The notes under the pieces are model-generated. The model did no database searches. It saw nothing but the letters and a program-made list of their open reading frames with translations, and was not told where the DNA came from. 64,000 nucleotides of DNA. Source: Apostichopus japonicus. Taxonomy: Eukaryota > Echinodermata > Holothuroidea > Aspidochirotida > Stichopodidae. Location of the stretch: NCBI RefSeq assembly GCF_037975245.1, contig NC_092573.1, forward strand, positions 26,379,265 to 26,443,264, written 5' to 3'. The number at the start of each line of letters is the position of its first letter. Within the stretch, counting starts at the first letter, position 1. Positions 8,753 to 57,166 of this stretch are shown here, in pieces. The translations under genes were made by a program, and so were the position numbers.

Positions 8753-11700
8753 ATGTCAAGTAAGCATGGCGTATCTAAGCATAAACTTATGTATAATTAA
8801 CATATAAGAGTGGGAGGGGGAAGGTTGCTTGAGGACAGAGTAACTTCCTGTCTGGCCAATGTTTGGTCATTGCCAAAAGTATTTAAGTTGTAAATTTCAT
8901 CTATTTCAAGTCGGTTAAGAAGAAGTAGCAGATTGGCCGTAGTCCAAAGCAATATGTAGTTGGTTGAATTAGGGTGTTACTAAAACGAATGACAATTGCG
9001 TTACACATAACGAATGACAATATGTTGTACACACTAAAATATTGCGTTGACTAAAACGAATGACAGTAATGACAGCACGGACATTTGCTTCAAATGGATA
9101 TCACAGTTCAGACTTCGTGGGTATCTAGATCTAGTAAAATACGGACAAGATAAAAACGCACCTTATAGTAAGCGAAATTGTAAGTCTGATTTTAAAAAGT
9201 AAATTTAACGTCATTTTCTTCCGATATTAATTGTTAGAAACTAACAATACTATATAATCTTGAAACGGCTTCAGTTATCTTTTAATATAAATCTACAGAG
9301 GTAAAAAGCACAGCACTCAAGCGCAATGTGGTTTCTATCCGTAAATTACACCAAAACCCTGCAACCACGTGATGCGATTTTCCTCAAATCATTTTTTCGC
9401 AGAAAATCAATAACCGCATTTACTCCACTCCGTTAATCATTCATTCTCCACTCAACACTGTCCTTCGTTGTCATTCGCTGTCATTCGCTGTCATTCGCTG
9501 TCATTCGCTGTCATTCGCAAATGATAATTAACCCTGTACAAAGTCAATTGTCATTCGGTCATTCGCTGTCATTCGTTTTAGTTTGTCCCGTTGAATTATA
9601 TAGTTTTGCAGCAGTTTTAGAGTAGCTTGTACCATCATGTAGCAGTTAGCAGTTAGTGTAAAGTAGCTTGCCACAAACTTCAATGAATCACAAAGTCACC
9701 AACTTTAAATATATATATATGTATAGATGCATCTCCAATTCGTGTGTCTTTATTTGTTCACATATCACTGTGACAAATCAATGGATCGAGGAGTGCTATG
9801 ATTTCCACATATAACAGATTAAAGATAACAGATACTGTAAATGTGGCACCAAGTTTTATAACCATGGATGCTTGAGAAGGCAGGGAATAATATACTTTTC
9901 AAACTTTGTGTGCTGAATAGTTTTGGAGGCTCTAAATTTGTTCTCTTATAAAACAGACTGCAGGTTCCTGTGTACAAAAAATGCTATAGATATATCATCT
10001 TTGCACTTATAAATGGCAATTTACCAGTTTTCATATTGTGCTTTGCGATGTCATACAAAAGTTTCCCTCAAAGACTTATTTGTGTCTTTGTAATGAGGTT
10101 GAACTCAGTTTACTGGCTTCATATTCAATGAGCTGGAACTCACAACTGGCTGTGTATAAACAAGACTAATGAATAATATATATGCTTGAGCAGTAGAGTG
10201 TAGCAAAACAAACACTTGCAAATATCTTACCTTTCAGAGGTCAAATCCTCATATTCTGTAATACATGAGGCTCACCTTTGAATGTGGGTGCTGATATAGC
10301 AGGCTATCACAATAAGGAGGGTCAGGTCAGCTCCTCCAGTCAGGACTATGCATAACTGTATGGCAGGCCATCAGTCTCAAATCGTGGGAGATCGACTTAT
10401 ACCGCTTTAAATCGACATATACAAACTTCCTTGGACTTATACCAGTTTCCAGTAGATTAGATTGACTTCTACCGATTTAAATCGACCTATACCAGTTTAA
10501 TTCTACATATCATCGATTTAAATCGACATATACCAGTTTAATTCGACATACTGTATCATCGATTTAAATCGACTTATACCAATTTCAATCGATGATAAGT
10601 AAAATAAATCGGTATATGTCGATTTAAATCGACATATACCAGTTTAAATCGATGATATGTCGAATTAAATCGGTATACGTCAATTTAAATCGACATATAC
10701 CAATTTAATTCGACTTATACCAGTTTAAATCGAAATATACCGATTTAAATCGACATATACCAATTTAAATCGATGATATGTAAAATAAATCGATGATATG
10801 TCAATTTAATTCGACATTTACCAGTTTAAATCGATGATATGTCGAATTAAATCGGTAGAAGTAAATTTCCGTGGACTTCGCTGTTTTTCCACCATAAGGT
10901 AGTAATAAAGAAGTCCTTATATCATGTAGAGTAGGGATTAATTTATAGCCATTTGTTGAGCATTAACAGGTTAGTTCATCTTATTTTGTTTTCCCACCAT
11001 AAGGTACTATCAAAGAAGAGATTGAGGCTGCAGACCGTAAGTTGGAGAACTGTTTTGGATCTGCAGACTTTGTTGGTTTGAGTAATCTCTACACTGAAGA
11101 CTGCAAGGTGCTGGCTACTGGCTCTCCCATGTTAGAAGGACATGAAGGTAAAATAAAGTCATTGAATGTCATTGAATTACACCAAATTGCTGTTTGGTAT
11201 TTTATGTACAACAGCTTACAGTATACTGTATCGTGTTTGTCAATGTCATTGGATTGCTCCAAATTGCTGTTTGGTATTTTATGTACAATCTTACAGTATA
11301 TTTTGTATGTCAATGTCATTGGATTGATCCTAATTGTTGTTTGTTATTTTATGTACAACAGCTTACAGTATACTGTATCGTGTTTGTCAATGTCATTGGA
11401 TTGCTCCAAATTGCTGTTTGGTATTTTATGTACAATCTTACAGTATATTTTGTATGTCAATGTCATTGGATTGCTCGAATTGCTGTTTGGTATTTTATGT
11501 ACAACAGCTATTATATCTCGTATATCAATGTCATTGGATTGCTCCAAATTGCTGTTGGTATTTTATGTACAACAGCTTAGGTATATCTTGTATGTCAATG
11601 TCATTGGATTGCTCCAAATTGCTGTTTGGTATTTTATGTACAATCTTACAGTATATTTTGTATGTCAATGTCATTGGATTGCTCCAAATTGCTGTTTGGT

Positions 11701-13927
11701 ATTTTATGTACAACAGCTTACAGTATATTTTGTATGTCAATGTCATTGGATTGCTTCAAATTGCTGTTGGTATTTTATGTACAACAGCTAGTATATCTCG
11801 TACAGTATGTCAATGTCATTGGATTGCTCCAAATTGCTGTTTGGTATTTTATGTACAACAGCTTACAGTATATTTTGTATATGTCATTGGATTGCTCCAA
11901 ATTGCTGTTGGTATTTTATGTACAACAGCTAGTATATCTCGTACAGTATGTCAATGTCATTGGATTGCTCCAAATTGCTGTTTGGTATTTTATGTACAAC
12001 AGCTTACAGTTTATCTTGTATGTCAATGTCATTGGATTGCTCCAAATTGCTGTTTGGTATTTTATGTACAATCTTACAGTATATTTTGTATGTCAATGTC
12101 ATTGGATTGCTCCAAATTGCTGTTGGTATTTTATGTACAACAGCTTACAGTATATTTTGTATGTCAATGTCATTGGATTGCTCCAAATTGCTGTTGGTAC
12201 AGTATTTTATGTACAACAGCTAGTATATCTCGTACAGTATGTCAATGTCATTGGATTGCTCCAAATTGCTGTTTGGTATTTTATGTACAACATTTTACAG
12301 TATATCATGTATGTCAATGTCTTCTTCAAATTCAACTTCTGCTCCATTTCAGGAGTTGCAAAATTGTTTAAGGGAGTCTACGATTCTGGTCCAAAGTCTG
12401 TAAAACTAGTCGAAGAAGAGATTGGCACTGCTGGAGGTGATGTGATTTACTCTAGAGGATTGTACACATTCTTCCTTGCTGATGGTAGTGTTGCAGATGA
12501 AGGGAAGTAAGTACACATAACAGGAATCAATTTACCCATTACCCAGTAGCACAATGAGGTGATGTGATTTACTCTAGAGTAATTTACTTCACTCCTCTCT
12601 TACCTGTCTCCTACAACACTAACGCACATTTCCTAGTCTACCTAGACGCCACTGGTATAATTTTAGCACTGCGCCCCCGGTGACCTCTCCCCCAGGTCAC
12701 AGCGCACTCTCTCTTCCTTCCGAATTTACCATTCCGAAGGAAAACGTGTGTTTTTAAGAGCTCCGTTTTCACTTTCGCCAAACTGACGTGATTTACTCTA
12801 GAGGATTGTACACATTCTTCTCTGGTTATCACCCCGGAATGTATTATAAGGAAGAGTCCACTATCAATGTTCTTGAAGCAACACATATTTGCTGTCTCAT
12901 ATTTGTAAGGAATAAAGACGTAGGGAGTCATTATGGTTAAGTCATTGCCAGTGGTTTCTCTCACTGGGGTCACGTCATTAACTCAATTCTCTGTATAAGT
13001 CTCTGGAAAAACTTCACAACCCCCTAAAGAGGTTTTACTTCAAATTTTAATGACTCGAGTCGTATATGACTCTTTGCAACGCTGTTGTGCAATCGTATAT
13101 ACATCAACGGCGTAGCTGGCCATCCTCCATTCCCCACTCTGTGTTCCCTGTCCTACCACCAAGTAAAGAATGTTTACTTTTAATCAAGATGGATGCATCT
13201 TACCTTGGTTTCCTTTCATTAGTCCCTTCATATGGAGGATGTGTAATAGACATTCTGCATGTATTGCTATATGATTGTTTGTACTCCTTTGGTTGTAAGT
13301 AATAAATAGTTTTAAGGTGATCTGCCAAACTATGGATAGCTCAAAAAGATAATAATTCTACCTGGTTGAAATGATGACATGGCATCACTTAAAGTTTAAC
13401 ATTATCCTGTATGTGGCAGATTCACCCTTATTCCAATCACTAACATGTGCCTAATATTGCTGTTAACTGCCTATTTGTATAGATACTGTATTGAGGAAGA
13501 GCAAAGAATTCTGGAATTTAATAGGGGGTGGGGTCTAATTAAGGTTCATGAATTTGCCAGAATGAATATGTTTGCCACAGTGAGTGGGCCAGAATATTGG
13601 CAGAAGATTATGTTTTTTTCTGGATGAGTATCTGAGCTGACCTTGTCAAATTTAATGGTGCCCTACCATATATCAGGGTCCATTTATATGTTGTCTACTT
13701 ATATATCTTTTCATACGTGCTGTATAAATATAAAAGTTTGATTTAACGCTTAAATGTTAAACATGACAGTAAACATTTGGTGCTAGTAATATGTTGAAAT
13801 TGAGCAGTTATTGTCTGAAAGTTTCATTAGTTTTTTCCTACTTGCCTGCAGGTTTGTGGTCCTGTGGAAACGAGTCAATGGACAGATGTACTTGTACACT
13901 GATATCATTAACACCAACAAGTCGTAA
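8753..13927 (+). CDS. SnoaL-like / DUF4440 (NTF2-fold) small protein, four exons
   Basis: Proposed exons are 8753-8759, 11004-11147, 12353-12506 and 13852-13927; total 381 nt, 126 residues. The first coding exon is only ATG-TCA-A followed by donor GTAAGC, and it joins in phase to the next exon as MSSTIKEEIEAADRK. The body reads ADFVGLSNLYTEDC, ATGSPMLEGHEG, VAKLFKGVYDSG, YTFFLADGSVADEGK and FVVLWKRVNGQMYLYTDIIN. That pattern is typical of single-domain DUF4440/SnoaL-like proteins of invertebrates (cone-shaped alpha+beta barrel). The biochemical role is unknown. Donors GTAAAA and GTAAGT and acceptors TTTCAG and CTGCAG frame the later exons cleanly. The two-codon first exon is the least certain part; the other exons are firm. 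Confidence 0.85.
8972..9589. mobile_element. MULE-like MITE (618 bp) with 9-bp target duplication
   Basis: Ends begin GGG and share ACTAAAACGAATGAC on both arms. The element is flanked by the perfect 9-bp duplication GTTGAATTA (8963-8971 and 9590-9598). The arms are built from tandem GAATGACA(GC) units, clearest as the GTCATTCGCT run at 9468-9520. GGG ends and a 9-bp duplication point to the Mutator-like group. It has no coding capacity and lies in intron 1 of the SnoaL-like gene. Confidence 0.75.
9600..10378. other. Intron 1 of the SnoaL-like gene, unique sequence
   Basis: AT-rich sequence without a recognised gene or named repeat, apart from a short TA run near 9708-9722. Confidence 0.4.
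10379..10862. repeat. Palindromic array of TTTAAATCGA-type units
   Basis: About 480 bp made of short units such as GATTTAAATCGACATATACC in both orientations, with ATCGATGATATGTCGA linkers. Since TTTAAA and ATCGAT are self-complementary and the units alternate orientation, either strand can fold into many hairpins. It lies in intron 1 of the SnoaL-like gene. Confidence 0.8.
11160..12345 (+). repeat. 71-bp tandem repeat filling intron 2
   Basis: About 16 copies of a roughly 71-bp unit. Each carries GTCATTGGATTGCTCC, AAATTGCTGTTTGGTATTTT and ATGTACAACAGC. Differences are single bases, small deletions and one or two CAGTA insertions. The last degenerate copy runs up to the acceptor at 12352. Long open frames in several phases are a by-product of the repeat, which lacks stops in those phases. 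Confidence 0.9.
12556..12820 (+). repeat. Two intronic echoes of the preceding exon
   Basis: Positions 12556-12579 repeat exon bases 12434-12457 exactly (24 bp). Positions 12788-12820 repeat exon bases 12442-12474 exactly (33 bp). Both lie in intron 3 of the SnoaL-like gene and are too short to be complete duplicate exons. Confidence 0.75.
12821..13851. other. Rest of intron 3 of the SnoaL-like gene
   Basis: No exon or mobile element is recognised. Short open frames here have no domain similarity that I can see. Confidence 0.4.
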
Positions 13928-16323: not shown

Positions 16324-19300
16324 TTACTTAACATCAGTAAATACTATTTCTGCGTCAACTTCGACTTGTTTCTTTGGCTTCTTGTTCACCTTTGCATATT
16401 TTGGTTTGGTTAATTCTAACTGTTTTGGGGTATTGCGATTGTCATCGCTATCACGTTGTTGTACTTCAGCATATAAGGGTGATGCTGGAGCACCCTTAGC
16501 ATCAATCATATCTCCATCCCCAGAAAGATTAAAATCTGGCTTAGCGTAGCCGGCACTATTTTCTCTATTTCTCGTCGGATCCACGTCTTCATACCGCGCC
16601 ATTCCATTTGATTTGACTCCTCTTTCAAATATTTCGCCTTCCTCTAACTCGGTAACGTTTCTACGGTTTTGGTCGTTAGTGTCCGTTTCTTCAAACTGTG
16701 GTTTTGCGTAGCCATCGTTGCCTTCTTTGCTCTCTATGATGTTTTCACCATGTATCGATTGCGCGAAGAATTCCCTTCCTTTCCCCTCACTTAAAACTAC
16801 GTTCATGTCAGGTTCGGCGTACACCTGTTCAGACATTTTGTCGTTAATTTGTATTTCCTTGTTGACTTTTTCATACTTCGTGATTTCTTTCTTATCTCTT
16901 CCGTCATCAAGCAGATCCGGACTTGCATAAACATCGTCGTCAATCACGTGATTTTCAGTCATCGTTATTTCTCTGACTTTAGGGTAGTCAGGTCTGGTAT
17001 CTGTTATAGATGAATTCAATTGATCTTTCGTTTTCGATTTCCGATGTTTTTTGTCTACCACTGTGTATGCATATTGACTTTGTCTATGGCCTTCGAACTC
17101 TGATTTGCTCCCTTTTTTAACCTCGGCATAAACGGGCAAAATGTTGTCCTCATTATGATTGCTAGCTTGGTTTTCTGAAATATGATGTTTTAGGTTCTCT
17201 TTCGATGGTTTCATTTGTTCATAATTGCTCGTTACACCGTTTCCTTCATTATTGTCAATTTCCACATCCTTATGTACTTGGTCATATGTCACCTGCTTGT
17301 TGTTTAGAGTTTCATCATGTTTCTGATATCTTACAGTTTCAGCATACTCCAAGGCATCTACTTGCCGGTCTGCATTCTGTTTCGAAGCATCATCATAATC
17401 AGTAACACTGCCTGGTTTTTCATGATCGGAAGGATCGTTTTTGTGAAAGACATTTCTTCGCTTAATAAGAACAAAAATTACGATAATTACCACAAGTAAT
17501 GCTAAACAGGCAGCTACTATTATTCCAGCCATAGCACCAAGACCACCAGTTGTTTTGAAATTTTCATCCTTTTGGATATTCCTGTCACCCGTACCATCCC
17601 GTTTCGAGTTAGTTTCGACAAGTAACGTCGCTTTAACACTTTCTTCAGCACCAGTACTCGCTTGAACGATGCACACCAGAGTTGTGTTGTTGTCTGTTGC
17701 CTTTAAATTAGTAATCACCAACTCTGTTTGGTTAAGTCCATGCCGCCCTGAAATAGAACCATATGAACATTTATAAGTTTTCATGTCTGATACCATAGAC
17801 CAATTACTTCATTTCAAACAATAACATATTGCAAAGATGGACTATTAACATAAGTGCTTGCACGTATAACATAAGACTTAGCCAACATAAGTTAAGCTGT
17901 ATACAGAATTGTGAAATTATTGTTAACTGACTTATACATTTTGGTTGTATACGGGCTGAAATGCTATCATTTGAGATTTTCTTCTGGTATATTCCTTCCT
18001 TTCATTTTCTGCCATTTGTGTCACAAAAATTAAATAATGAGCATAGATTAACTTCCGGTTATTAGAAAGCCCAAAACCTTTACAATACGGTGAAAGTATA
18101 AACAGTTACCTTGAAACTGAAGTAGCGTCTTATCGTCCCATGTAATTCTGACATCACCATTTTTCACAGAACCAGTACATGTGAAAGTGACATTTTCTCC
18201 AAGCATCCTTCTTGCTGTCAACGGGGTAATGTTAGCATTAGGTTTACTCGGGAAAGGAATCACGGAACAGGAGGGAAGAGAGGCAACATCACCAGTTCCT
18301 ATAACGCACGTGTATCGTATATCTTTGTCCTCTGGTTTTAAGGTGGTCTCGATCCGTAGATCATTGCGTTGATTTTCTGAAGCCAGTTCGGTTTCGTTCC
18401 CCTCTTTAAACCAACGTATCAATGGATAGTTATTTTTAACGCCGGACTCGCAAGCTAGGATTATATTCTGACTTTCCTGTAACAAAGAAATATATTTTTA
18501 ATAGCATGCATATTCAAATTCATTTCCATAAGTTTGTCAAAACTGAACGCCTTACAACAGTAGCCTACATAGGCCTAAACAGTAGTGAAAACCCACTAAC
18601 CACATATAGGACATAATGTATATAGGCCACCATGTATAGAGGCCACCATGTATATAGGCCACCATGTATATAGGCCACCATGTTTATAGGCCACTATGTA
18701 AATATGCCAACATGAATATAGGCCACCATGTATATTGGCCACCATGTAGGCCTATATAGGCCACCTTATATATAGTAGATAACTTTTCGTATAAAACTTC
18801 GAAATCTCGAAATGAAACGTCACAATTTCGTGATAAGGCATTAATGTTTCGATATTAAACGATATGAAAGTTTGTAGACATATAACTTGTTAAAATATTG
18901 AGATGACTATGATCAGGGTAGGCCTATAATTAAGTGTTCAAAATTCCTGGACTTGCAGTTTTATCATTTTGCATAGCATTTTGCGATGAAATACTGGATA
19001 AGTTATTCTTTGACGACGATCGATACGTGAAACGTCAAAATGATGTAATAAAACATCAAATTTACGACATAAACGTCGAAAATTTCAAGATGTAATATCT
19101 AGTACTTGATAAGTGAGTGAGTGAGTGAAACTTTATTGATCCCAAAGGGAAATTCAGGCACTCGCTCATAAAACAATGAAAATGTTACAAAAATAGATGT
19201 GTATATTGTACAATAAAACAGTAAGAATAATAAGAAAAAGTCACTATATGAGAGTCAACTTAACAAAACCTCATTGAAAAGCTTAATTGCACGGGGTATG

Positions 19301-20017
19301 AAAGAATCTCTGTATCTATTGGTTTTGAGACACGGAAGTCGCAACATGCCACTGCCTCTGGACATCTGACTAATATGAAGTAGCTCATAGAGGGGGTGGG
19401 TATGGTCCTTCCATACCACGTCCAGTTTGGACTCGAGAAGGCTGTGGTAAACCGAGTCAATGGAAGGCAAGGATTCCCCGACTACTCTCTCCGCTTTCTT
19501 AATGATGCTGTTAATACGATCTTTTTCATGTTTGTTGACATTCCCACCCCAGCAAATCAAGCAATAACGCCAAACCCCGCTAAAACCTTAAAAACGCCAA
19601 AACCCTGATAAAACTTTGAGACAAATTTCTGTGCAAGGGTCCCACCACTGGCTTATGGGCCCTTCGTTTTTCATATTGGTATGGCCATATGAGCAGATGA
19701 AAAATGATCCTATGTGTATCAACAAACCAGAATAACTGTTTTCATGAATACACTCTAGTCTACAAATTCACATGTGCTCTTGTGTAACCAAATCCGCCAC
19801 GGAACTAACAACCAGAAATGGGAGGGGAAAAAACGCTCAATATTATATTTTTACCTAAAAACTGTTAGTGGTCCAGAGTTCGTATGAACGGCAAATTGTC
19901 ACTGCAAATATAGTACTTGGTCTTACGAACATGATTAATGCATTTGACTGTGTCCAGAAATAAGAATGCTCTGATATTACCAATCTTAGACGATATATCT
20001 GTCTGTCTGTCTATCTG

Positions 20018-20063
<46 letters not shown>

Positions 20064-21107
20064 CGACAGCCTGGATGGATCATCGCCCTGATGAAATTTT
20101 ACATGAGTTTTGGGGGTCTGGAATGTAATGTACATCCCCATAGTGACGTCACTGGGTTGTCTCTAGCTTACTATTTTTTCTATTGTTTTTGCAATGATTC
20201 ACCTATTTATGACTTGATGGTGAATCCATCAAAGTGTATGAGGAGACTTTATCTCGATATCGTCAACATTCATGTCCTAAGCATGAGAGCCTCACATTTA
20301 TGAGAATGCAATATGTAGGCTAGTAATCGCAAGCTACATTGTCGACGTAACATGTTGTTGACATACTTATAGAAGTTTATATCATTCGCGTTTATGGTGT
20401 ATAGATTGTGTATGCTTTAATGTAATACGTTTTCTGTATGGTAAAAAACGTGTAACCACAATGTAAGATTCACTTCCGGGTCGGTAGAAACAGCCTCATT
20501 CACTTATACTTTGTACATTTGTGTTAGTTTAATGACACTATAGGATACTATAGCATATTAACTTATGGGTTTTCAATCTTTGTTCATGGATATTAATGTT
20601 ATAAGAATAAAGAAATGAATTGCTTACAACATGTATGGGTTAATGTTCACACATACAAACCTTTCCTATTTGTAAAGGACCTTGCACTAAGTCTTGGGAC
20701 CAAACAGAACAGTTTGGTGACCAGACTGGTAAAACATGCAGAACCGTAGATGATATGTGTCTGCTCTCATAGGCACATTTATAAATACCCGTGTCAGATT
20801 CACGAACTTGTAAAATAGCTATACCGTAAACTGTGGAATTGTAAAGAACGAAAAAGCGGCCCTGGAAGCGAGATTCTACGAAAATGCCACGTGACACAAC
20901 GTCACCAACATTATCAAATACATTTGTGTAGTATCTCCATGTCATAGCTGCTCCCTCGTAGTCACAGAGTAAGATAGTTGAGTCATTCTGTCGTATTGTA
21001 GTGTCTGAGATAACCAGACAATCTCCTTCAGACACGGTAAGCTGAATCACAACAAACACGAACCTTAAATATCTCATACTTGTCAGGACTCTTCGTAATT
21101 GATTCAT
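16324..21107 (-). CDS. Transmembrane Ig-domain receptor with long tyrosine-rich tail (three exons)
   Basis: Exons on the minus strand are 21107-20661, 18476-18110 and 17747-16324; 745 residues; junction phases 0 and 1 close in frame. Domain order: signal peptide (about residues 1-30; the Met at 21077 or 21155 are alternative starts); V-type Ig (LLCDY, TWRYY, SDTGIYKC); C2-type Ig (IILACES, IRWFKE, IRYTCV); a third Ig split by the second intron (VTFTCTG, VRITWDD, TTLVCIV); a membrane span at about 343-366; and a 380-residue tail. The tail has 17 tyrosines, eight in YxxV (YAEV, YEKV, YDQV), four in YAxP and one in YxxM. One VTYDQV fits the ITIM pattern and one TKYEKV the ITSM pattern. A cell-surface signalling receptor is inferred; the ligand is unknown. 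I do not recognise an orthologue by name. Confidence 0.85.
18612..18764 (+). repeat. 16-bp minisatellite ATGTATATAGGCCACC
   Basis: About nine imperfect copies within the first intron of the Ig receptor gene. Confidence 0.8.
19106..19560 (-). mobile_element. 3' end of a non-LTR retrotransposon (LINE)
   Basis: The minus-strand frame 19560-19255 (CWGGNVNKHEKDRINSIIKK, then HPLYELLHISQ and RYRDSFIPRAIKLFN) resembles the extreme C-terminus of LINE reverse transcriptases. It is followed by a 3' UTR ending GGGATCAATAAAGTTTCAC and a (TCAC)n tail at 19106-19122. The 5' part is missing, as in a typical 5'-truncated insertion. It lies in an intron of the Ig receptor gene. Confidence 0.75.
19998..20063 (+). 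repeat. (ATCT)n microsatellite
   Basis: A run of CTGT units passing into about 12 ATCT units. Confidence 0.9.
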
Positions 21108-22661
21108 TTTCCTTCCAACTAATGAAATACTTGTAATTAAAAATATAGCAAACAATCCATGAAAAAAATCACATTTTTGGGGGTATCGATAACTTATGTC
21201 TTTAAGATATATATAGAGTTATAGAGTTAAATGCGAACACAATATTATCCAGAGTAAACCATAACGTCGTTTGAACGTGACGATCTAGCAACGGTAAATA
21301 CAGACAGAATCATTCGCAGATTCGTTCGCTGATCGGGAATCATCTGCCCTTAACTTTACTTCTAAGGTGGATGTAGTAATGTAGTAGATAACTTAGTCAT
21401 CCGCACACATACTGCAATAATTATTAATCCGATTTCTCCGATGAAACAATAATGCACGTTTATGGAAGTCAGATCAGGTGGTATAATAATGGGCACATAT
21501 ACACCGTGTGAAATCACGTAAATTTAGATAAGTTTTATAGTCTTTAGCATCTTCGCTTTAACATGCTTATCTCTAACACTGACCGTTAACCTTATATACC
21601 ACTGCAATACGTCCGGTCAACTTCCGACACGATTGAAAGGCCTTGTCTCTATTTTTTTTTTTTTTTTACAGAAATTGATTAATTGTTTGTACAGATAACA
21701 AAACGTTCCATAAATAACGGAAAAAAAGTCTAACAGTAGCCTATCTTGCTAGATGAATTAGTTGTGCGAAGATTCACACCTTACTGCCGTAAAGAAGATA
21801 TAAATACTCGAATACTATTAGATGAATAATTCTATTGTTATCTGTGTTTCATTTCGACGAAGAAATCGACATATCTGACCAGAATGAGGGAGCATCCCCT
21901 AGCTATTTCCTGTCCAATTAGCAAATAATAATCACGAAGTCATTCGGTCGAAGAGTTGCATGTAAAATAGACTACGGGCTACACATAGTCATCTCTGGTT
22001 CCAAATAAAGTTGACATCTCAGCGATGAAAGAAATTAATCATGAATTCTTGATAATGTAGTTACTTTTGAACTACTACAATGACTCACACTAAAGACCAT
22101 TGTCATATCTTCGTAACCTCACTTCCTACTTATCAAATATTTGAGTTCAAGATTTTCCTGTCAGGAAACTATTTACCAGAGTCACAGCGTAGCCCTCATT
22201 TCCTCTAGGTTGATCAATACTGATAGAGGAATGCATGAACCAAGATCTACCCTATGCCACTGGTTATCTATATAATAGGTCAGTTCTGACATCGAATACA
22301 ACAATGCTAAGTCACCATATCATTATGTTTATATATACGATTGCAATAATAACATTGTTTATATGTGTATCTAGCATCACGTTGAAGCAGGAATCATGGT
22401 AATTGAACACGCATTAACAGTGAGAGTCGTAAAGCGATACACTATTAATGTTCCAATCACACACAACTTTTGTAACAATAGTGAATTTGGAACAATGGTC
22501 GAGCACGTCTGTTTGCTTCTTTGCTATTATTTTCTTTTGTTGGACCACTAAAAGTTGCAAACCTTGATGCTTTGACAAAAAAACACATCTGAAGTCAAAT
22601 GAAAGACACCAATGATATTATGATATTATATCTGAAGAATAATGCATAATGATGTTGATAT
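21108..22661. other. Upstream of the Ig receptor first exon, no gene seen
   Basis: AT-rich unique sequence. It would hold the promoter of the exon at 21107-20661 if that exon is a transcription start, or intron if the exon at 24476 is used instead. Confidence 0.4.
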
Positions 22662-23018
22662 CAGTGGCGTAGAAAGGTACTTTTGAGTGGGGGGGGGAGG
22701 CTGAAGACTGATGGCCGGCCTGGGGGAGGGGTCTAAGGGGAGGGGGAATTTTTGGAATTTTTTGAATTTCCAGGTAGCCTCAGATGCAATTTGGTGCAAT
22801 ATAGCACACTTCAACACCCACTCCATTTTGTAAATAATTTTGCATTTTCCCCTGGCCTTAGATGCAATTTGGTGCTCCAAACGAGATTTTTTTCTCATTT
22901 GGAAATGAAAAAGGGGCTTTCTGACTTGCGAAGCGGGGGGCGGAAGGTACTTCGGCCCCCATATTTTTCACGGGGGGGGGGGGCTGGCGCCCCCAGCCCC
23001 CCGGTTCCTACGCCCTTG
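22662..23018. mobile_element. hAT-like MITE (357 bp)
   Basis: It starts CAGTGGCGTAGAAAGG and ends GGTTCCTACGCCCTTG, and is flanked by the perfect 8-bp duplication GTTGATAT (22654-22661 and 23019-23026). CA...TG ends with an 8-bp duplication are hAT features. G runs lie near the left end (22689-22698) and the right end (22975-22984). No coding capacity. Confidence 0.8.
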
Positions 23019-23026
23019 GTTGATAT

Positions 23027-24056
23027 TGTTGGAATTTGAGGAATCAAACCTTAATTTATCATCAGTAGAAAACCTTCAGTGTAAACTTTCATTTCTATGA
23101 GTACATTTGTATTGTGGAGTGTTAACATGTGATCTACTGAGTTTGTACTAGTATAAGTAAGTGTATATATCTCACCGTGTATGAAGTAATTTGTACTTAT
23201 ACAGAAGAAAATAACTTATAGTTATTAAAACATGCAGCGTTTGCGACCATACCGAGGCTGATAGGACACTGGCATTGTAGCGATGATCAACTTCTAAAGC
23301 ACAAAATATTTTCATGATCAATGTTCTGTCAGAAAGCTAACGTAATTAATAAATAATTCAATACAGTTCATAATGATTGTGCAAAGAAGGCGGTGAACTG
23401 ACTTCAGCAAAGAACTAAACATTTGTTCCAAAAGCTTACTACTCTGACTTCGAACACGAGAAGTGTCATACAATGCAGAATCTTGAAGAATCAGACAATA
23501 TATTTAATAAAATAAAAATTAAAATTAGGGAGTTGAACGCTGTCAGGTGTCAATTGAAGAATAAGAGTCAGTTTCAATTGGCGGTGTACATTTTTATCAT
23601 TGGGAGTTTATATCATTGTAACCTATAGCGTATATATTGTACTTTTCAACTTAAAGCGGCCTTACCTTGTTCACATCGAATATCAGTTCTGTGACCCAGA
23701 TTTCAAAAGTATAGTAGTTTATCTTTGTTTATTAAGACATAATGTAGGATGACACTCTGATGTCTCTTAACATTGACGCAGATATATGCGCCACTTTCTC
23801 ATTTCACACAATATAATAGGAATGCCCTGACAACGATGAACATTTTATAGTGAACAAAAGGCAGAATGTACAGACTTGCAGATTTTGTGTGGATTACTTG
23901 AAACATCTACTTTCAGAGTAGGCTGTATTACAGTACCATTGTTATACCCTCTTGGTAGCGGGGATGGACAATGAAGGCTTGACCCAGCCGAATATTCAGC
24001 ATTGTTTGCCCGTGCCTATCAACATTGTCATTCTATAAATTTATTTAAAATCTCAC
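23027..24056. other. Downstream of the second V-domain exon, no exon seen
   Basis: No C2-type Ig, membrane or tail exon is found here, so the exon at 24476-24057 has no private downstream exons nearby. Confidence 0.45.
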
Positions 24057-24476
24057 CATATTTTGATCCATCGGCTCGCTGCTACAGAGCGGGTACTCAT
24101 GAGGATAAACGTACAGTTTGTACTCAGTTAACCGATTAGACATCTCTGAACATATGTAGACTCCGGTATCAGTGATGTGGAGGTCTCTTATCGTTAGTTT
24201 GTACGAAACCGATTCAGTTAATATGATGTCGAATCGGTCTTTTGCCGGATAATTGGAAGTAATCTTCTCCTTTGAGGCTATGATGTCAGCCATAATATCA
24301 CTATCGGAAACGTAATACCGCCAAACTTCATGTTGCACAAGAGGTGATAACAGACAGGTGAATGTAACATTTTGTCCAACCTCCATGAATACTTCAGAGC
24401 TCCATACGGAGAAAATAGGAACGCACAACAGAGTCCATAGACCATATACGGTTAGTGTTTTAACAGTGTAACCCAT
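24057..24476 (-). CDS. Second signal-peptide plus V-type Ig exon (alternative first exon or partial gene)
   Basis: A 140-codon exon begins with ATG at 24476. Signal peptide MGYTVKTLTVYGLWTLLCVP leads to about residue 27. A V-type Ig domain follows with VTFTCLL, EVWRYYV, LTIRDLHI and DTGVYICSEM, then YPLCSSEPMDQNM. The exon ends in phase 0 at donor ATG|GTGAGA. The C2 exon at 18476 also starts in phase 0, and joining gives the spacing PLCSSEP(5 residues)ESQNIILAC. That equals the spacing at the same place in the intronless receptor (PICTSHP...VTISC). It may therefore be an alternative first exon for the same receptor gene; a truncated neighbouring gene is the other reading. Confidence 0.75.
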
Positions 24477-26734
24477 TGTGTTACGTTAATAATCGTTATA
24501 ACATATTTGCTTTTCAATTTCTATCACTGCATCAAAGGGTTTTACCGTACTCAAAGCAAATCAATCGAATCTACACACCGATGCGTCAATACTGTATGTA
24601 TCTTCTCGTAAAATACTACATACCAGAATATAAACATTGATTTGGTATTGGTGTATACTGCTTGTAAACCAATATTTCAATGTCATCATCTTCCTTGTTT
24701 CAAGTATTAATAAATCAGACAAGGACACTGTGAATATCCGGCATTGATTTTTTAGGTATGTTCTTGCAAACCCTTTAGCCTTTGACAATCAAAACAAAGA
24801 ACTGGAGTATTTCCTTCCTCATATACGATAAACTAGGCCTAAATTAGGTATGATCTCATCGCTAACGTGTTTAATATATGTTAAACAGATCATGTGGTCA
24901 GAATAAAATGCCAAAGGTCAATGTTGATTTCAATTGTTTATAACTTTGTTAGTATTCCAACAGTAACATAAAGACGGACTAAACTACGGTTATATGCTCT
25001 TACTGACCATGTATTTTGAACGGATAGTGCGTAACCTCTTAATTAATTGATTTCGGGTTTTAAACGTATATTTAACTTAAAAGTTGAAGTGGCAAGCATG
25101 CATGATACACGGCACGTGAATATCCCTGTCATCTATTGTATATACAATTTTTACAAGAGATCTTTCAAAACCTGTGTAAAATACAATAGACGTAGATAGC
25201 TAAAGCAAATGACATATTATTTATCTAGGCCTACTTCGAAGATTTTTGCCTGTGTAGACAGAAATTAATATGTCCTCCACCAGTCAAATTTTAAAGCAAA
25301 AATAAATTTGCAATCCATTATAAACTTATTTCTCTACAATTCTTCTGGAAGAAATTACATACAAGAAAAACGTAGTTTTCATCAAAGGAAAATATGTTTC
25401 ATGCAAGTATTTTCACCAGATTTTAAACTTTTGCCCTATTTTGAGCAACGTTCTTGATTAGGCTAAGGTTAATCAGTTTGTAAAATCTTGTACCATATAT
25501 TGACACTATGCATGAATAAAGAATTATTTAAAGGTGTGACTTGTTAACTTATTTTCGGTATATACATGATAAATGATTTATTTTCTTTATATTTAAGTAA
25601 AATGACGTCATATGAAACAGAACTTAGATTGTAAGTATAACTAACACTAGATTTGTAGACTCACTTGCCGATGCACAGGGGAGGGTGGGGGCGGGGATGA
25701 GGTCTGAAGTTGATGGGGACACTATAATTACCTGGTATGCAGGGTGCTACCACGAGACAAAACGTCCGCATATAGAGCGAGAGGCCTGTGTTCGAATCAC
25801 TGTTCTAGCAATTTCATCTCATTGTAATTTCAAATATATATGTACAATATTAATTTGCCTTGGTCGTTAATTTCCATTTTATTTCACAGAGTCTGTTCAA
25901 TGTATCTCTTTCGAGATCCGGCTTTAGGATTCACAAATGATTTCGAGTTGATTAACATCATGTTTGATCTCTAGAGTAAGGCAAAATATGTCACCAAAAC
26001 AGAAGTAGCATAGTTCGATACAGGTGACAAAAGCCTACAGTGGAATGACGTATTCCCCCACTTTCTCTTCTTTACCTTAAATTGTATAGATCATTACAGC
26101 AGTATCAATATTTTAGAATTCACTTACTATGATGGATTATATATAACTTCCATTGAAAGCACCGCATATACCGCTTTGAGTCTAAAATGTCATGCTTGTG
26201 TCGTCGTCGTTCATTCTGGTTTGTAAGGCACCACAGGGAGAAAGACAATCCCTACCAACAGTGTGGTCCATGTGATAGTGATGATAGGTTCTGATTTCAT
26301 TTGAGAGATATCGCTATTTTAATGTTCCTTCACGAACAAGACAATATGCAAAAACAAGTCTAAATTTGACATAATTGAGCCGAGTTTTCTTAAATTTATA
26401 TTAATACTTCCATTTTGTGTTAGAGATGGATTTTGCAAATGCTGATTCTAAACTCTTTTAATTTACAAATATTGCTGACTAAATATTGGCTTGGTTCAGC
26501 CAGAGGCTCAACCACGTATACTCTAGGGACGGCTTTATACCTCCAGACAAATAGTCAGGGACAGGTAGAATATTACAAAATATGAAGAATACATAAATAT
26601 AACGTATATGGGGTAAAACGTACACATTTCAGCTTTGTTTCACACTTGGAAAATACAGCACCCTTTTGCAACTTAGAACCTTCCATTTTAAAAAAAAACA
26701 ACAAATGAAAGGGGGAGGGGACAGCACTCCTCTT
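24477..26734. other. Intergenic, no gene recognised
   Basis: AT-rich sequence. Open frames near 24561-24788 and 25685-25870 lack recognisable domains. A purine-rich stretch (GGGGGAGGGG) at 26709-26720 precedes the minisatellite. Confidence 0.4.
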
Positions 26735-29516
26735 ACACTCCTTCCCTACACGACGTTACACCTTAACCCCTCTCCCCTACACGGCGCTACACATTAACCC
26801 CTCTCCCTACACGACGTAACACCTTAACCCCTCTCCCCTACACGACGCTACACATTAACCCCTCTCCCCTACACGACGTTACACCTTAACCCCTCTCCCC
26901 TACACGACGTGACACCTTAACCCCTCTCCCCTACACGACGTGACACCTTAACCCCTCTCGCTTACACAACGCTACACATTAACCCCTCTCCCCTACACGA
27001 CGTTACACCTAAACCTCTCTCCCCAACACGACGTTACACCTTAATAACCTCTCCCCTACACGACGTTACACCTTAGGCCCTCTCCCATGCACGACGTTAC
27101 ACCTTAACCCCTCTCATCCACACGACGTTATACCTTAACCTCTCTCCACTACACGACGTTACACCTTAACCCCTCTCCCATGCACGACGTGACACCTTAA
27201 CCCCTCTCCCCTACACGACGTAACACCTTAACCTCTCTCCTCTACACGACGTTACACCTTAACCCTTCTCCCATGCACGACGTGACACCTTAACCTCTCT
27301 CCACTACACGACGTTACACCTTAACCACTTTCCCATGCACGACGTTACACCTTAACCCCTCTCACCCACACGACGTTACACCTTAACCCCTCTCGCTTAC
27401 ACGACGCTACACATTAACCCCTCTCCCCTATACACGACGTGACACCTTAACCTCTCTCCCCTACACGACGTTACACCTTAACACCTCTCGCTTACACGAC
27501 GTTACACCTTAACACCTCTCCCCTACACGACGTTACACCTTAACCTCTCTCCCCAACACGACGTTACACCTTAATAACCTCTCCCCTACACGACGTTACA
27601 CCTTAGGCCCTCTCCCATGCACGACGTTACACCTTAACCCCTCTCATCCACACGACGTTACACCTTAACCTCTCTCCACTACACGACGTTACACCTTAAC
27701 CCCTCTCCCATGCACGACGTGACACCTTAACCCCTCTCCCCTACACGACGTAACACCTTAACCTCTCTCCTCTACACGACGTTACACCTTAACGACTTTC
27801 CCATGCACGACGTTACACCTTAACCCCTCTCACCCACACGACGTTACACCTTAACCCCTCTCGCTTACACGACGCTACACATTAACCCCTCTCCCCTATA
27901 CACGACGTGACACCTTAACCTCTCTCCCCTACACGACGTTACACCTTAACACCTCTCGCTTACACGACGTTACACCTTAACACCTCTCCCATACACGACG
28001 TTACACCTTAGGCCCTCTCCCATGCACGACGTTACACCTTAACCCCCTCCCCTACACGACGCTACACCTTAACTCCTCTCGCCCACACGACGTTACACCT
28101 TAAACCCTCTCCCTTACACGACGTGACACCTTAACACCTCTCCCCTACACGACGCTACACCTTAACTCCTCTCCCCCACACGACGTTACACCTTAAACCA
28201 TCTCCCTTACACGACGCTACACCTTAACACCTCTCCCCCACACGACGTTACCCCTTAGGCCCTCTCCCTACACGACGTTACACCTTAGGCCCTCTCCCAT
28301 GCACGACATTACACCTTAACACCTCTCCCCTACACGACGCTACACCTTAACTCCTCTCCCCCACACGACGTTACACCTTAAACCCTCTCCCTTACACGAC
28401 GTTACACCTTAGCACCTCTCCCCTACACGACGCTACACCTTAGGTCCTCTCCCCTACACGACGTTACACCTTAAACCCTCTCCCTTACACGACGTTACAC
28501 CTTAACTCCTCTCCCCCACACGACGTTACACCTTAAACCCTCTCCCTTATACGCCGTTACACCTTAAACCCTCTCCCCCTACACGGCGCTACACCTTAAC
28601 ACCTCTCCCCTACACGACGTTACACCTTAGGCCCTCTCCCATGCACGACGTGACACCTTAAGCCCTCTCCGCTACACGACGCTACACCTTAACTCCTCTC
28701 CCTCACACGACGTTACACCTTAAACCCTCTCCCTTACACGACGTGACACCTTAACACCTCTCCCATACACGACGTTACACCTTAACCCCTCTCCCATATA
28801 CGACTTTACACCTTAACCCCTTTCCCCTACTTGACGGTACACCTTAACCCCTCTCCCCTACACGACGCTACACCTAAACTCCTTTCCCCTACACGACGTT
28901 ACACCTTAAACCCTCTCCCTTACACGACGTTACACCTTAACACCTCTCCCCTTCACGACGCTGCACCTTAATTCCTCTCCCCCACACGACGTTACACCTT
29001 AAACCTTCTCCCTTACACGACGTTACACCTTAACACCTCTCCCCTGCACGACGCTACACCTTAACTCCTTTCCCCTACGCGAGGTTACACCTTAAACCCT
29101 CTCCCTTACACGACGTTACACCTTAACCCCTCTCCCCTACTTGATGTACACCTTAACCCCTCTCCCCTATACACGACGTAACACCTTAACCTTTCTCCCC
29201 TACACGACGTTACACCTTAACCCCTCTGCCATGCACGACGTTACACCTTAACCCCTCTCCCCTATACACGACGTGACACCTTAACTCCTCTCCCCTACAC
29301 GACGTTACACCTTAACCACTCTCCCCTACACGACGTGACACCTAAACCTCTCTCCCCAACACGACGTTACACCTTAACCTCTCTCATCTACACGACGTCA
29401 CACCTTAACCTCTCTCCACTACACGACGTTACACCTTAACCCCTCTCCCATGCACGACGTGACACCTTAACCTCTCTCCCCTACACGACGTTACACCTTA
29501 ACCCCTCTCATTGCAT
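26735..29516 (+). repeat. 31-bp minisatellite, about 90 units
   Basis: The unit is CCTCTCCCCT, then ACACGACGTT, then ACACCTTAACC. Variants include CATGC, CCCAC or CTTAC before ACGACG, and TTAGGCCC for TTAACCCC. The block from 27001 to about 27480 recurs with a 530-bp offset to about 27955 and carries the same private variants, so large blocks have been duplicated. TTAA in each unit puts stops in several frames, and nothing is coded. The strand is strongly C-rich. Confidence 0.95.
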
Positions 29517-31261
29517 TACTGACAAACAATAAACAAAGGCAGTCTTGATGGGTTGAAATTATCATTGCGCAATACACTTATCAGTATTAAGTGAATGTGT
29601 TGGAAAATACAGCTATAATGCTATTAATGGAACAAGACGCGCGCTCCTTATTATTATGTTTTAGATTTCGTTCTTCGTTTAACATAAGTTCAGCTTCTGG
29701 GGCTTTCAAAACTCTTAAACCGACCAATCGCAGACAAGCAGATATTTCCCAAAAGTAGTGTCTATAGTTTTGTCCCCTGTATAGTATATCTTTCTTTTTC
29801 ACTTCTTTATTTTCCACTTCCTCTCTTTTCTTTGTTGTTCGCCTCTTAGTAACGTTCACAGAGTTAGTGACCCTGTGTACATTACCCATAGTGTTTGCTT
29901 GACTTATTCCTGCTAAGAGGAGCACGTCGGCTCCCTTGTGCCCTTTGGCGGGCTACCACAAGCCCTATTAAGCCTAGTGTGTTACTCATTACGTTATCGT
30001 TAGTATTCGGTGTTTATTATAACATTATAGTGTTTTCCACTTCGAATCCAATACTAATTGGCCAGGCTTTGTTTTTTTCTCCTTTAAGTGTAAGAGTTAT
30101 GTCATGCTCTCTGTAATCTCTGGTAGAATGAGTTAAATATGTGGGAAGAAAGTTTGTCTACTTCCTGGAGGATGGGTGGCCAAGTCTAAGTAAAATCTTG
30201 TCTGGTAGGGTGGGATTGCAACTTTCTGTAATATTTACTCTTTTTCTAAAAATTGCTTAAAGAACCCCAGGTTTACAAGCAATTCTATCCCATTCACCAT
30301 GAAACTTCAAGCTTCCGTACACCTGCAGTAGAGACAAGCTGTACAAGATCATTACCAATTAACTGTATTCATTTCCACACATTATTTAGGTTATGTTGAT
30401 GTAGTCGACATCTTACTGAAGGACTGGTCGATGTTTACACTGACGAGGGAACGGATTCGATGCCCCCCCCCCCCAACTTTTAGAAGTATTCGTAGACTGA
30501 GGGACCGTTCTAAATGGATGAGATGGGCGTGCCATTTGCATTAGTAGATAAGTAGATTAGTAGACCATCACTGTTAAATTATAATGACTCCCATTTATTA
30601 ATCTTGTTTTACGTATGCATATGGTAATCCATCATTACTTTATGGTGAATAGTATTTACCCTATGAACTACAAGGGAATATTGTGTGCTTGTATTCATTT
30701 TAATATACTTGTGTGTAATATCATCGTAAAGGTAGTTTAACCCCGCTTCCCTTGACTTATGTGTCTTGTGGTTGCGTTACCAGCATAGCTTATAGTCCTT
30801 AAACTATGTGCTTCACAGGGTTTCTATTATAATGGTCTCATGCGGTGTTAAAGCAGGTATTCGTTCCAAGTGATACCTTTTTTCCCCTTCTTTTTCGTGA
30901 TCCATCTGTTGTACACTATTGCTCAATCCCCAATTTAGCAAGTCTATACGATACAGTATATCGGACGCAATAAGAAATCTTGTTACATTTCAGTTATGTA
31001 CAACCAACGTGTAGCACTATATAAGTGCATAGTTATGTACAACCAACGTATAACACTATATAAGTGCATGCGTAACCGGGTACTCTCATTCTTAGTTCAT
31101 CGCAATTGTCAACTGACGGCATTAGAAACGTGAAGCTCTTTTTTTTTGAAATCTTCAAAATAAAGACAGGGCGAAAAGATGTAACATGGTTTTCTTCTTT
31201 ATTAAATAGGTGGAACATGTTATGCTCTCTCTCTCATTCAGTAATGAAGTTATAACCAATA
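29517..31261. other. Intergenic, no gene recognised
   Basis: Positions 30992-31030 and 31031-31069 are a tandem pair of a 39-bp unit (TTATGTACAACCAACG...CACTATATAAGTGCAT). A C run lies near 30464. No coding domain is seen. Confidence 0.4.
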
Positions 31262-31615
31262 GTTCGTGTAAAGTATATCAATTCGTTTGAAAGTATATAA
31301 AATATATATACAACAGTTAAATTCGTTTGAAAGTATATACAATATAGATACAACAGTTAAATTCGTTTGAAAGTATATAAACAATATAGCTACAAAAATT
31401 CAAGTCGTTTGAAAGTATATAAAATAGATACAATAGTTAAAATCGTTGAAAGTATATATATATAATAAGGACACAACAGTTAAATTCGTTTGAAAGTATA
31501 TACAATATATATACAACAGTTCAAGTCATTTGAAAGTATATTAAAATAAATACAAAAGTTACATTCTTTTCAAAGTATATACAATATAGAAACAACAGTT
31601 AAATTTGTTTGTTCC
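31262..31615 (+). repeat. About 41-bp tandem repeat downstream of the intronless receptor
   Basis: About nine diverged copies of AATTCGTTTGAAAGTATATA followed by CAATATAGATACAACAGTTA. Confidence 0.85.
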
Positions 31616-31956
31616 TATGTTGGTAAACATACAAATTGATTTAATTTGAAATAATACATCAAACGATGCACATATCATTTATAATGCCATTGGTAGTAAA
31701 GTGTAATAAATGGAAATAAAGTGAAGAGATATCGAAAGCTTTTCTTCATGTACCTTTGTGTAACTATGAAAACTATAACACGGTTGTACCGTAAAGTTAG
31801 CTATCCATGTACCAGACTGTAAGTTTACAAAAGATATTTAGATAACATAGACAAACCTTATAACATTCTAACAAAGCAATTAGTAGAACATTTGTTTCAA
31901 ATGTACAATTTACAATGTAGCTATGAATACAATTCTCCGCTCAACCTGCATGAGCA

Positions 31957-33492
31957 TCATTCAGGTTGGTCACTACTGGTTACTGATGATCGCATTTCTA
32001 CATAATCTTCAACTGTTTGAGACCGTGGGACTTCATATTCACCAGGTGAAGAAGATGGGACCTGATGATAAACATCATCAGTAAAGCTTAAAGTCCCGGC
32101 TGAGTAAGTGTCAATGTCTCTGACGGTCGGTGTAATTCCAAGCGCATTATTAGCGGTGTCGTATCTGTGAAGACTTTTGTAGAGATGATCGTTGTTTCTC
32201 TGTAGGCCTACACCAACAGAATCGGACACTGCCTCTTCAGTTCGTCTCCGAACTCCTGCCTCCAGTGATGGCATACCTTCATCTTTCGGTTTCCTCATTC
32301 TATTTGCAACTTTATGAATCACATACACAACAGCAATGAAAAGTATTTGTCCAACAACTATCGCTACTATCAAAATAACAATAATCAAAGAATTAGACTT
32401 TGACGATGCGCTACCTCCAAACTCGACAGTTTTTGAATCGGGAAAGATCGTAGTCAAATTTCCAAAGTCTTCTTCTGTAATGTTCACGTTAAACGTTGAC
32501 TGTGTGGTATCTTCTGTAGTGTTCACGATAAACGTTGACTGTGTGGTAAGGTTGATAACTCTTATAACGGCAGTAGCAGAAGAAATCCCATCAGAATTAC
32601 GAGCAACACAACGGACGGAAACACCATTATCCTCAAATAATAAATTGCTTATCATTAAAACACGTCCCTCTGCTGCTATTTTCATTCTACGATTATCCAA
32701 GTTAACGGGATGATTAGCAAAGAACCACGAATATTCAAATTCAGTAATTGATCCACGGGAGGGTATGCATGTGAAGTTCACTGCGCTACCAACGAAACCT
32801 CGAAAAAGAGCTGGTTCTATATTGATCTCCGGTGGTGGTCGGAAAGGAACGATCGAACATGACCTACTCTGGGTAAATGTTGGATGAGATGACGAGCACG
32901 TAAATTCAATGCCATTGTGTCCACCTTCGACGATGAACGTGTATGTCAACACAGACGAAGATGAAGGTCCAGCTACCACTGCATGTCTGTTCTGGAACCA
33001 AGTCAAATGTGGAGGAGGAACGCCTCCTTCAGATGAACAGGAAATGGTGACAACTTGACCCACCTTGACATTTTCTCGAGGATGTGACGTACAAATTGGA
33101 GAGTGAGGTGATTGGAGTCTAACCATCAGGTTAACCGGTTTGAATAATGTTCCTTTTCCCGGTACGGGTTCGATCACACAGTGATACTGTCCCGCATCCT
33201 GAGTGTTCACGTTAGCAATACGCAAGTTGTAGAAACCCAGGTGATGATTACCAACTATGGTGAAACGAGGATTAACTGCCTCTGGATAGAAGGTCGTATC
33301 ACGTGATAAATAACGACTCTGAGCAACACTCCACCAATAAACGGAGAAGGATCCTCTGTTTATTACTTGGCATTGAAGTGTTGCAGTCTGTCCACTGTTT
33401 ACCGTGACGTCAGGAGGATCTATTGCAAACCTAATGGACGTCACAAGACGCACCGTGAAGATGAAGAACACTCCTGTCAAAAACAGTCTCAT
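31957..33492 (-). CDS. Intronless transmembrane receptor with three Ig domains
   Basis: One uninterrupted frame of 511 residues from ATG at 33492. Signal peptide is about 1-19 (MRLFLTGVFFIFTVRLVTS). Ig1 has C41, W54 and DAGQYHC105. Ig2 has C152, W165 and C199. Ig3 has C242, W256 and C295. A Thr-rich, N-glycosylation-rich stalk with a duplicated TTQSTF segment spans 316-341. The membrane span is about 369-391, and the tail is about 120 residues. The tail has YHQV, YEVP and YVEM near its end (SH2-docking type; YVEM fits the PI3-kinase YxxM pattern). Its layout parallels the three-exon receptor at 16324-21107, which has introns at the V/C2 border and inside the third Ig domain. It may be a retrocopy that kept function. 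A signalling role is inferred; no specific orthologue is recognised. Confidence 0.9.
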   Translation of the reverse strand: MRLFLTGVFFIFTVRLVTSIRFAIDPPDVTVNSGQTATLQCQVINRGSFSVYWWSVAQSRYLSRDTTFYPEAVNPRFTIVGNHHLGFYNLRIANVNTQDAGQYHCVIEPVPGKGTLFKPVNLMVRLQSPHSPICTSHPRENVKVGQVVTISCSSEGGVPPPHLTWFQNRHAVVAGPSSSSVLTYTFIVEGGHNGIEFTCSSSHPTFTQSRSCSIVPFRPPPEINIEPALFRGFVGSAVNFTCIPSRGSITEFEYSWFFANHPVNLDNRRMKIAAEGRVLMISNLLFEDNGVSVRCVARNSDGISSATAVIRVINLTTQSTFIVNTTEDTTQSTFNVNITEEDFGNLTTIFPDSKTVEFGGSASSKSNSLIIVILIVAIVVGQILFIAVVYVIHKVANRMRKPKDEGMPSLEAGVRRRTEEAVSDSVGVGLQRNNDHLYKSLHRYDTANNALGITPTVRDIDTYSAGTLSFTDDVYHQVPSSSPGEYEVPRSQTVEDYVEMRSSVTSSDQPE

Positions 33493-56611: not shown

Positions 56612-57166
56612 AGTTGCTGCTACCGGGATGTCGAATCATTGTTGCTGCTACCGGGATGCCCGAATCATTGTTATTGCTACCGGGATGCCCGAATCATTGT
56701 TGCTGCTACCGGGATGCCCGAATCATTGTTGCTGCTACCGGGATGCCCGAATCATTGTTGCTGCTACCGGGATGCCCGAATCATTGTTACTGCTACCGGG
56801 ATGCCCGAATCATTGTTGCTGCTACCGGGATGCCCGAATCATTGTTGCTGCTACCGGGATGCCCGAATCATTGTTGCTGCTACCGGGATGCCCGAATCAT
56901 TGTTACTGCTACCGATATGCCCGAATCATTGTTGCTGCTACCCGGGATGCCCGAATCATTGTTGCTGCTACCCGGGATGCCCGAATCATTGTTACTGCTA
57001 CCGGGATGCTCGAATCATTGTTACTGCTATCGGGATGCCCGAATCATTGTTGCTGCTACCGGGATGCCCGAATCATTGTTGCTGCTACCGGGATGCCCGA
57101 ATCATTGCAATGTTAGGCTGCATTTGACAAAATTAAGTTGCTGCTATCGGGATGCCCGAATCATTG
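56612..57166 (+). repeat. 29-bp minisatellite
   Basis: About 17 tandem copies, plus one separate copy at about 57138-57166, of TTGCTGCTACC followed by GGGATGCCCGAATCATTG. Each unit holds the small palindrome CGGGATGCCCG. A 29-bp period cycles through all three frames, and the unit has no stop in any plus frame. This explains the three overlapping long open frames; it is not coding evidence. Confidence 0.95.

Follow-up and report, generated by a model that had tools for sequence, protein, structure and literature searches.

Two leader-bearing V-type immunoglobulin exons ahead of one receptor body in Apostichopus japonicus: candidate alternative first exons

Several gene systems are known in which variable 5' exons are spliced to a shared downstream part. 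The nearest to the locus described here are the sDscam genes of chelicerates, in which, according to the part of the source article used here, tandem 5' cassettes coding for immunoglobulin (Ig) domains stand before one set of constant exons, every cassette having an ATG of its own and, upstream of it, a stop in frame (PMC4835542). Transcription is taken to begin ahead of every cassette, cassettes that lie beyond the first can also splice to the constant exon, and a cassette consists of 2 or generally 4 exons coding for one or two Dscam-type Ig domains (Ig7 or Ig7-8), with just 2 cassettes in sDscam beta 6 (same part of PMC4835542). Variable first exons with their own promoters, spliced to common downstream exons, are likewise described in the portions used of articles covering the protocadherins (PMC4835542) and UGT1 (PMC3325998). 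Here we describe a locus of the holothurian Apostichopus japonicus in which two first exons, A and B, each coding for a leader and a V-type Ig domain, stand in line with one body made of exons C and D. The window, meaning the whole stretch of 64,000 nucleotides that was analysed, is C13:26379265-26443264 of the 671.6 Mb, 35-contig genome used for the searches. From the sequence features given below we favour, with moderate confidence, the reading of a single receptor gene whose shared body follows either of two alternative first exons.

As far as the sDscam genes are covered in that source, the window gene is like them in having leading Ig cassettes with their own ATG and upstream in-frame stop before one constant body, and unlike them in that its heads are single exons coding for a leader and a V-set domain and its body holds two Ig domains. 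Exons C and D gave no FN3 match at an E value of 1, so the combination of Dscam-type Ig and FN3 domains by which an sDscam is recognized is not found here. UGT1 and the protocadherins, as described in part of their sources, share with the window gene, on the reading favoured here, the alternative heads and common downstream exons, but they are unrelated proteins, and the window gene has only two heads and no common promoter element that we could find. UGT1 and the clustered protocadherins have many more variable exons than two. Vertebrate Ig receptors of the nectin, PIGR and CD276 type are like the window gene in their V-set fold and V-C2 layout, with similarity at the superfamily level only. 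In the literature searched, a collection outside which many journals fall, no paper was found whose title or start of abstract reports alternative first exons coding for V domains in a receptor of this kind, the sDscam genes being the nearest case. A review from 2025 on invertebrate Ig proteins, so far as it was available, does not use the terms "first exon" and "promoter" in its main text (PMC11999971).

Exon anatomy and the cysteine frame

The coordinates of the exons and of the features around them are collected in Table 1. An earlier note on this DNA had proposed the four exons, and its coordinates, reading frames and phases proved exact, with A and B each ending in phase 0. Its reading of A and B as leader plus V-type Ig domain also holds, since a hydrophobic leader is seen in both and both keep the V hallmarks, as does its count of one C2/membrane/tail exon set, no second body having been found in the window. 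The translation of exon A runs from MGYTVK to MDQNM and that of exon B from MNQLRR to LQIGK, and the joined frames A-C-D and B-C-D are open for 737 and 746 amino acids, respectively, up to a common stop. Both exons have an in-frame stop upstream of the ATG, which in exon A is the fourth codon before it, while the frame of exon B is open back to 21218, 37 codons 5' of its ATG. The phase of the two donors and the position of the intron within the A strand of Ig2 are identical.

Table 1. Exons of the window gene and associated features (positions within the window)
Feature	Position	Strand	Description
First exon A	24476-24057	(-)	420 nt; ATG, leader, V-type Ig domain, A strand of Ig2; donor ATG/GTGAGA, phase 0
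First exon B	21107-20661	(-)	447 nt; ATG, leader, V-type Ig domain, A strand of Ig2; donor AAG/GTTTGT, phase 0
Shared exon C	18476-18110	(-)	367 nt; remainder of Ig2 and first half of Ig3; starts in phase 0
Shared exon D	17747-16324	(-)	1424 nt; second half of Ig3, transmembrane segment, cytoplasmic tail, stop
A-to-B interval	21108-24056	(-)	no second Ig/membrane body found; four TATAWAWR matches; AATAAA at 24045
B-to-C intron	18477-20660	(-)	contains LINE-like 3' fragment, 19587-19255
Single-exon relative (31957 receptor)	31957-33492	(-)	V-Ig2-Ig3-membrane-tail, 511 aa; same eight-cysteine frame

The cysteines connect the first exons with the body. Exon A carries a V pair, C41-C109, and near its end an early Ig2 cysteine, C131, in the triplet PLC; exon B carries a V pair, C48-C111, an extra C30, and near its end C133 in the triplet PNC. 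Exon C contributes the Ig2 cysteines C9, C57, and an extra C70 and lacks their early partner, which leaves one of the three unpaired, so the first exon has to supply the partner, as C131 of A or C133 of B. The frame of eight cysteines so obtained, comprising a V pair, an Ig2 pair, an Ig3 pair, and an extra pair between the beginning (mostly PxC) and the end of Ig2, is complete in A-C-D, in B-C-D, and in 19 of the 20 long-frame relatives described below when a cysteine is accepted within 9 columns. In either product the cysteine of the first exon would thus be expected to pair with one of exon C in this extra Ig2 disulphide. For the additional C30 of exon B, either a free thiol or a dimer linked by a disulphide would be predicted. 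The accounting is the strongest evidence for the arrangement, and at the level of the predicted proteins it links A and B alike to a body of the exon C type, and to exon C itself as the only such body found at hand.

The spacing from the early to the next Ig2 cysteine had been taken in the earlier note to single out exon A. The spacing is indeed 17 residues in A-C and 17 in the 31957 receptor, and it is 24, or seven residues longer, in B-C. Across 21 family members, the 31957 receptor included, it ranges from 16 to 25, being 17 in 8 and at least 20 in 3 of them, and it was rejected as a test between A and B because this range covers both values; the seven extra residues of B-C are therefore no warning sign. 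Of the earlier proposal, the alignment of two leader-bearing V exons with a single body is supported by phase, open frame, splice sites, the lack of any second body found in the window, and above all the cysteine accounting against the receptor family, whereas the preference for A on spacing is not supported.

The membrane span in exon D has a hydropathy of 3.65, and the tail that follows has 17 tyrosine sites, 13 of them of the type Yxx[VILMP]. The immunoreceptor tyrosine-based inhibitory motif (ITIM) of inhibitory receptors has the form [IVLS]xYxx[VIL]; a single one of the 17 sites (QVTYDQV) fits it, and the 12 further Yxx[VILMP] sites do not. No relatives of the tail were found in prokaryote and viral contigs.

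Splice sites and the intervals between exons

Splice sites were scored with approximate frequency matrices and ranked as percentiles among 4292 GT and 3669 AG of the same strand, and three Kazal-domain exons in the window, with the best site taken on each side, served as reference (donors 98.4, 95.2, and 99.2; acceptors 98.7, 96.6, and 98.1). The donors of A, B, and C lie at the 99.0, 92.6, and 98.4 percentiles and the acceptors of C and D at 100.0 and 99.0, the donor of A being comparable to the reference donors. Within exon B, an in-frame acceptor at the end of the leader (21041) reaches the 92.3 percentile with a score of 0.7, an acceptor at 21004 (97.8 percentile) is out of frame, and one at 20861 (99.1 percentile) would halve the V domain. 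With these matrices we found no strong acceptor that delivers the V domain of A or B whole and in frame, which fits first exons chosen by promoter, as in UGT1, the protocadherins, and sDscam. By the same approximate scoring, the locus has two first exons with their own ATG, the same donor phase, and no strong acceptor, ahead of one constant body. Strong acceptors do exist 5' of exon A (25249, 99.4 percentile), and an additional 5' leader exon may precede it. An acceptor 9 nt inside exon C, when joined to B, gives 27.7 bits for Pfam Ig_2 and 25.5 bits for Ig_3, compared with 25.9 and 22.5 bits for exon C by itself, the acceptor reaching only the 28.6 percentile.

On the reading of two alternative first exons, in a transcript that starts upstream of A the strong donor of A would be spliced to exon C, whose acceptor is strong, and B would be skipped as intron for want of a strong acceptor that delivers its V domain whole and in frame. 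A transcript that starts between A and B would have the donor of B as its only first-exon donor, weaker but without competition, and would join it to exon C. Two promoters and the use of both junctions are what this scheme predicts. Either product would be a type I membrane protein with a V domain, two Ig domains, a membrane span, and a long tail, whose tyrosine motifs, once phosphorylated, would recruit SH2 proteins; each first exon would bring its own cysteine for the second Ig2 disulphide, so that both products would fold in the same frame.

The acceptor at 21041 would also permit a different product, in which A is spliced in frame into B after the leader of B to give a V-V-Ig-Ig protein, and a relative at C12:24.51 Mb does have three V domains before one body. 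The acceptors of the V exons in that relative score 2.9, 6.4, and 5.7, however, beside which 21041 is weak, and C131 of exon A would lose its partner, so we consider such a protein the least probable of the alternatives weighed here. Exon A left unspliced lies in an open reading frame (24485-24045) that ends in DQNMVRF, its stop standing 3 codons past the donor and overlapped by the AATAAA at 24045. Exon A could thus be, or also be, an independent gene encoding a short secreted V domain, and intron-retained products after variable exons are reported for sDscam in the part of PMC4835542 used here. Against this, C131 would be left without a partner, the donor of A stands at the 99.0 percentile, and AATAAA or ATTAAA is common locally, with 13 listed between 25000 and 15500; we regard this use of exon A as very unlikely.

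Matches to TATAWAWR lie at 22337, 22335, 21598, and 21215, all between A and B, and say little, given that the motif occurs about twice per kb on this strand. The fragment in the B-to-C intron resembles what we take to be the 3' end of a long interspersed nuclear element (LINE) reverse transcriptase frame, with no Pfam match at 0.01, and is followed by short CACT repeats.

The receptor family and the V domains

Relatives in the genome were found by searches with exon A, exon C, and the 31957 receptor. The last of these queries gave at least 26 genomic places at E ≤0.001, itself included, and the exon C protein at least five, namely itself and four other genes at 27-32% identity. All three domain models are matched within a single open frame at 19 of these 26 places; the models cross-match one another, and the sequences used to build them were the window gene and five of the family genes. 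Among the 19, L043 has no eighth cysteine, its membrane span is at residue 229, and Ig3 is probably absent. A single long open frame is present in 20 places, the twentieth (L047) with a V match only, and the remaining six are split or partial (L036, L042, L045, L046, L048, and exon C of the window, L049). All 20 long frames contain a segment of hydropathy ≥2.7, which is followed in 18 by at least one Yxx[VILMP]. Seven of the 26 places form a cluster on one strand at C21:5166226-5261269 (L026, L030, L032, L035-L037, and L040), and six of these seven are one long open frame. The 31957 receptor itself carries a tandem 39-base duplication in its stalk (32471-32548).

The window gene, with V, Ig2, and Ig3 domains and then a membrane span, belongs to this family and shares its domain order, eight-cysteine frame, and tyrosine-motif tail. 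It differs in that the family is mostly of a single coding exon with one V domain, whereas the window gene has introns after A or B and after C, and two V first exons. The reading frame continues through the position of the intron between A or B and C in the 20 long-frame relatives, and both a split body (C21:5182536) and the gene at C12:24.51 Mb appear to be interrupted elsewhere. The latter (L046 686-3202, L042 1450-2348) bears introns and has its three V domains before one Ig2/Ig3 body. Its V exons look like serial domains of one protein, since acceptors are present and the first two exons (327 and 321 nt) are whole codons; the third V domain is split over two exons. Its second V frame opens with Met and a hydrophobic, leader-like stretch, and this exon may also be used as a first exon. 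In the places examined, with flanks of about 1.5 kb on each side for most, an arrangement of two V exons with leaders ahead of a single body was seen in no further gene.

Exon A scores 31.2 bits against Pfam V-set (E 2.7e-7; cut-off 26), and exon B keeps the hallmarks C, W, and DxGxYxC. Among 2100 stop-free frames of at least 20 amino acids, our V model matches only A, B, and the 31957 receptor, the next frame scoring 7.5 bits, as judged with models built from these same sequences. Exon B scores 31.9 bits against A and only 17.9 bits against the best of 177,635 PDB sequences; the best PDB sequence match of exon A is PIGR at 27.5 bits. The AlphaFold2 model of exon A has a V-like order of nine strands at low confidence, with a mean predicted local distance difference test (pLDDT) value of 61.2, and the best PDB folds for it include V-set folds, among them sodium-channel beta4, nectin-1, and PIGR domain 2; this model and that of exon B are given little weight. 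In a set of 34 V sequences brought together here, A and B included, trimmed B has A as its top match (32.2 bits, next 20.8), and trimmed A has B at 30.9 bits and a member of an array on C12 at 30.4. The whole of exon A as query gives 31.3 bits for the C12 member and 30.9 for B, and the genome search with exon A gives 30.3 and 29.7 bits. This array (C12:9881658-10242529; L010, L012-L016, L018, and L020) is a separate group of eight closely similar V frames on one strand over 360 kb. At C15:22.03 Mb lies an A-like V exon (L019 1489-1875, minus strand) that ends in LPLLC and is 40% identical to A over residues 80-138; neither this exon nor the two frames after it gave a Pfam match at 0.01.

That the V domain of A is as similar to those of the C12 array as to B, together with the 5.6 kb from A to C, could mean that A is part of another gene, its remaining exons lying elsewhere or lost. 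No other Ig2, Ig3, or membrane exons were found in the window, the 31957 receptor apart, and the phase and cysteine of A fit exon C, making this origin of A highly improbable. In the V tree, the C12 array and the C15 exon are grouped with A (0.74), L043 is grouped with B (0.68), and a single clade holds them all (0.87). Simple exon duplication is therefore not demonstrated, and judging from these sequences the two exons may go back to an old duplication or may have separate V lineages as their sources. If A is near the C12 array and B near another family member, a V exon could have been recruited from elsewhere in the genome and not copied locally, so that V-exon shuffling would have supplied the fixed signalling body of a germline-encoded invertebrate receptor with a V domain that is swapped by promoter choice; we hold this to be unlikely and offer it as a tentative suggestion.

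Between the 31957 receptor and exon A, a 31-base unit is repeated in 89 copies as a minisatellite (26744-29509), and GC skew is strong over 24001-32000. Two further stretches, 11003-12510 and 56561-57186, are repetitive and open in several frames simultaneously. The minus strand also carries the Kazal-domain exons of a neighbouring gene (43879-46003) and an ADH_N exon (891-1214).

Weight of the evidence and meaning

A number of results count against two working first exons. The donor of exon B is weaker than all three Kazal reference donors, its V domain at 17.8 bits (E 0.0038) stays below the Pfam V-set cut-off, and its AlphaFold2 model is poor, with a mean pLDDT of 51.9. In codon use the signal is weak, 8.7% and 7.3% of 3606 background windows scoring as high as exons A and B, respectively. 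No motif common to the 1 kb before A and the 1 kb before B rises above shuffled controls, and no TATA-like site lies within 1.6 kb 5' of exon A. Joining a first exon to exon C raises Pfam Ig_3 only slightly, from 22.5 bits for exon C alone to 26.0 for A-C and 23.9 for B-C, and Ig_2, at 25.9 bits for exon C alone, is unlisted at E 0.01 for both joined forms. The V tree does not unite A with B as sister sequences, and one V domain per body is the rule of the family.

Some of these results would be expected if one first exon were live and the other a recently silenced or non-functional copy with its frame still open, in particular the weak donor and sub-threshold V score of B, the lack of a promoter signal found for A or B, and the family rule of one V domain per body, with one frame matching all three models in 19 of 26 places. 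The frames are nonetheless intact over 420 and 447 nt, and both exons keep the leader, V hallmarks, partner cysteine, and phase. Exon A is ahead in Pfam score and donor strength, and B is closest to the body, so neither has the look of an obvious relic. We judge a single live exon to be unlikely, though it is the foremost of the competing explanations, and we continue to favour one gene with two alternative first exons. Its products may signal and serve in recognition, and a possible immune role of the receptor is suggested by the size and divergence of the family and by its tyrosine-motif tails.

If both first exons are used, one signalling receptor could present more than one V-type recognition domain, with no need for gene rearrangement or for large clusters of exons. 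The locus would then be a minimal, two-exon version, in an invertebrate, of the variable-first-exon scheme of sDscam, the protocadherins, and UGT1. The family to which it belongs, with about twenty mostly single-exon V-type receptors, most of them with tyrosine-motif tails, is a good system in which to study the diversification of V-type recognition outside vertebrates.

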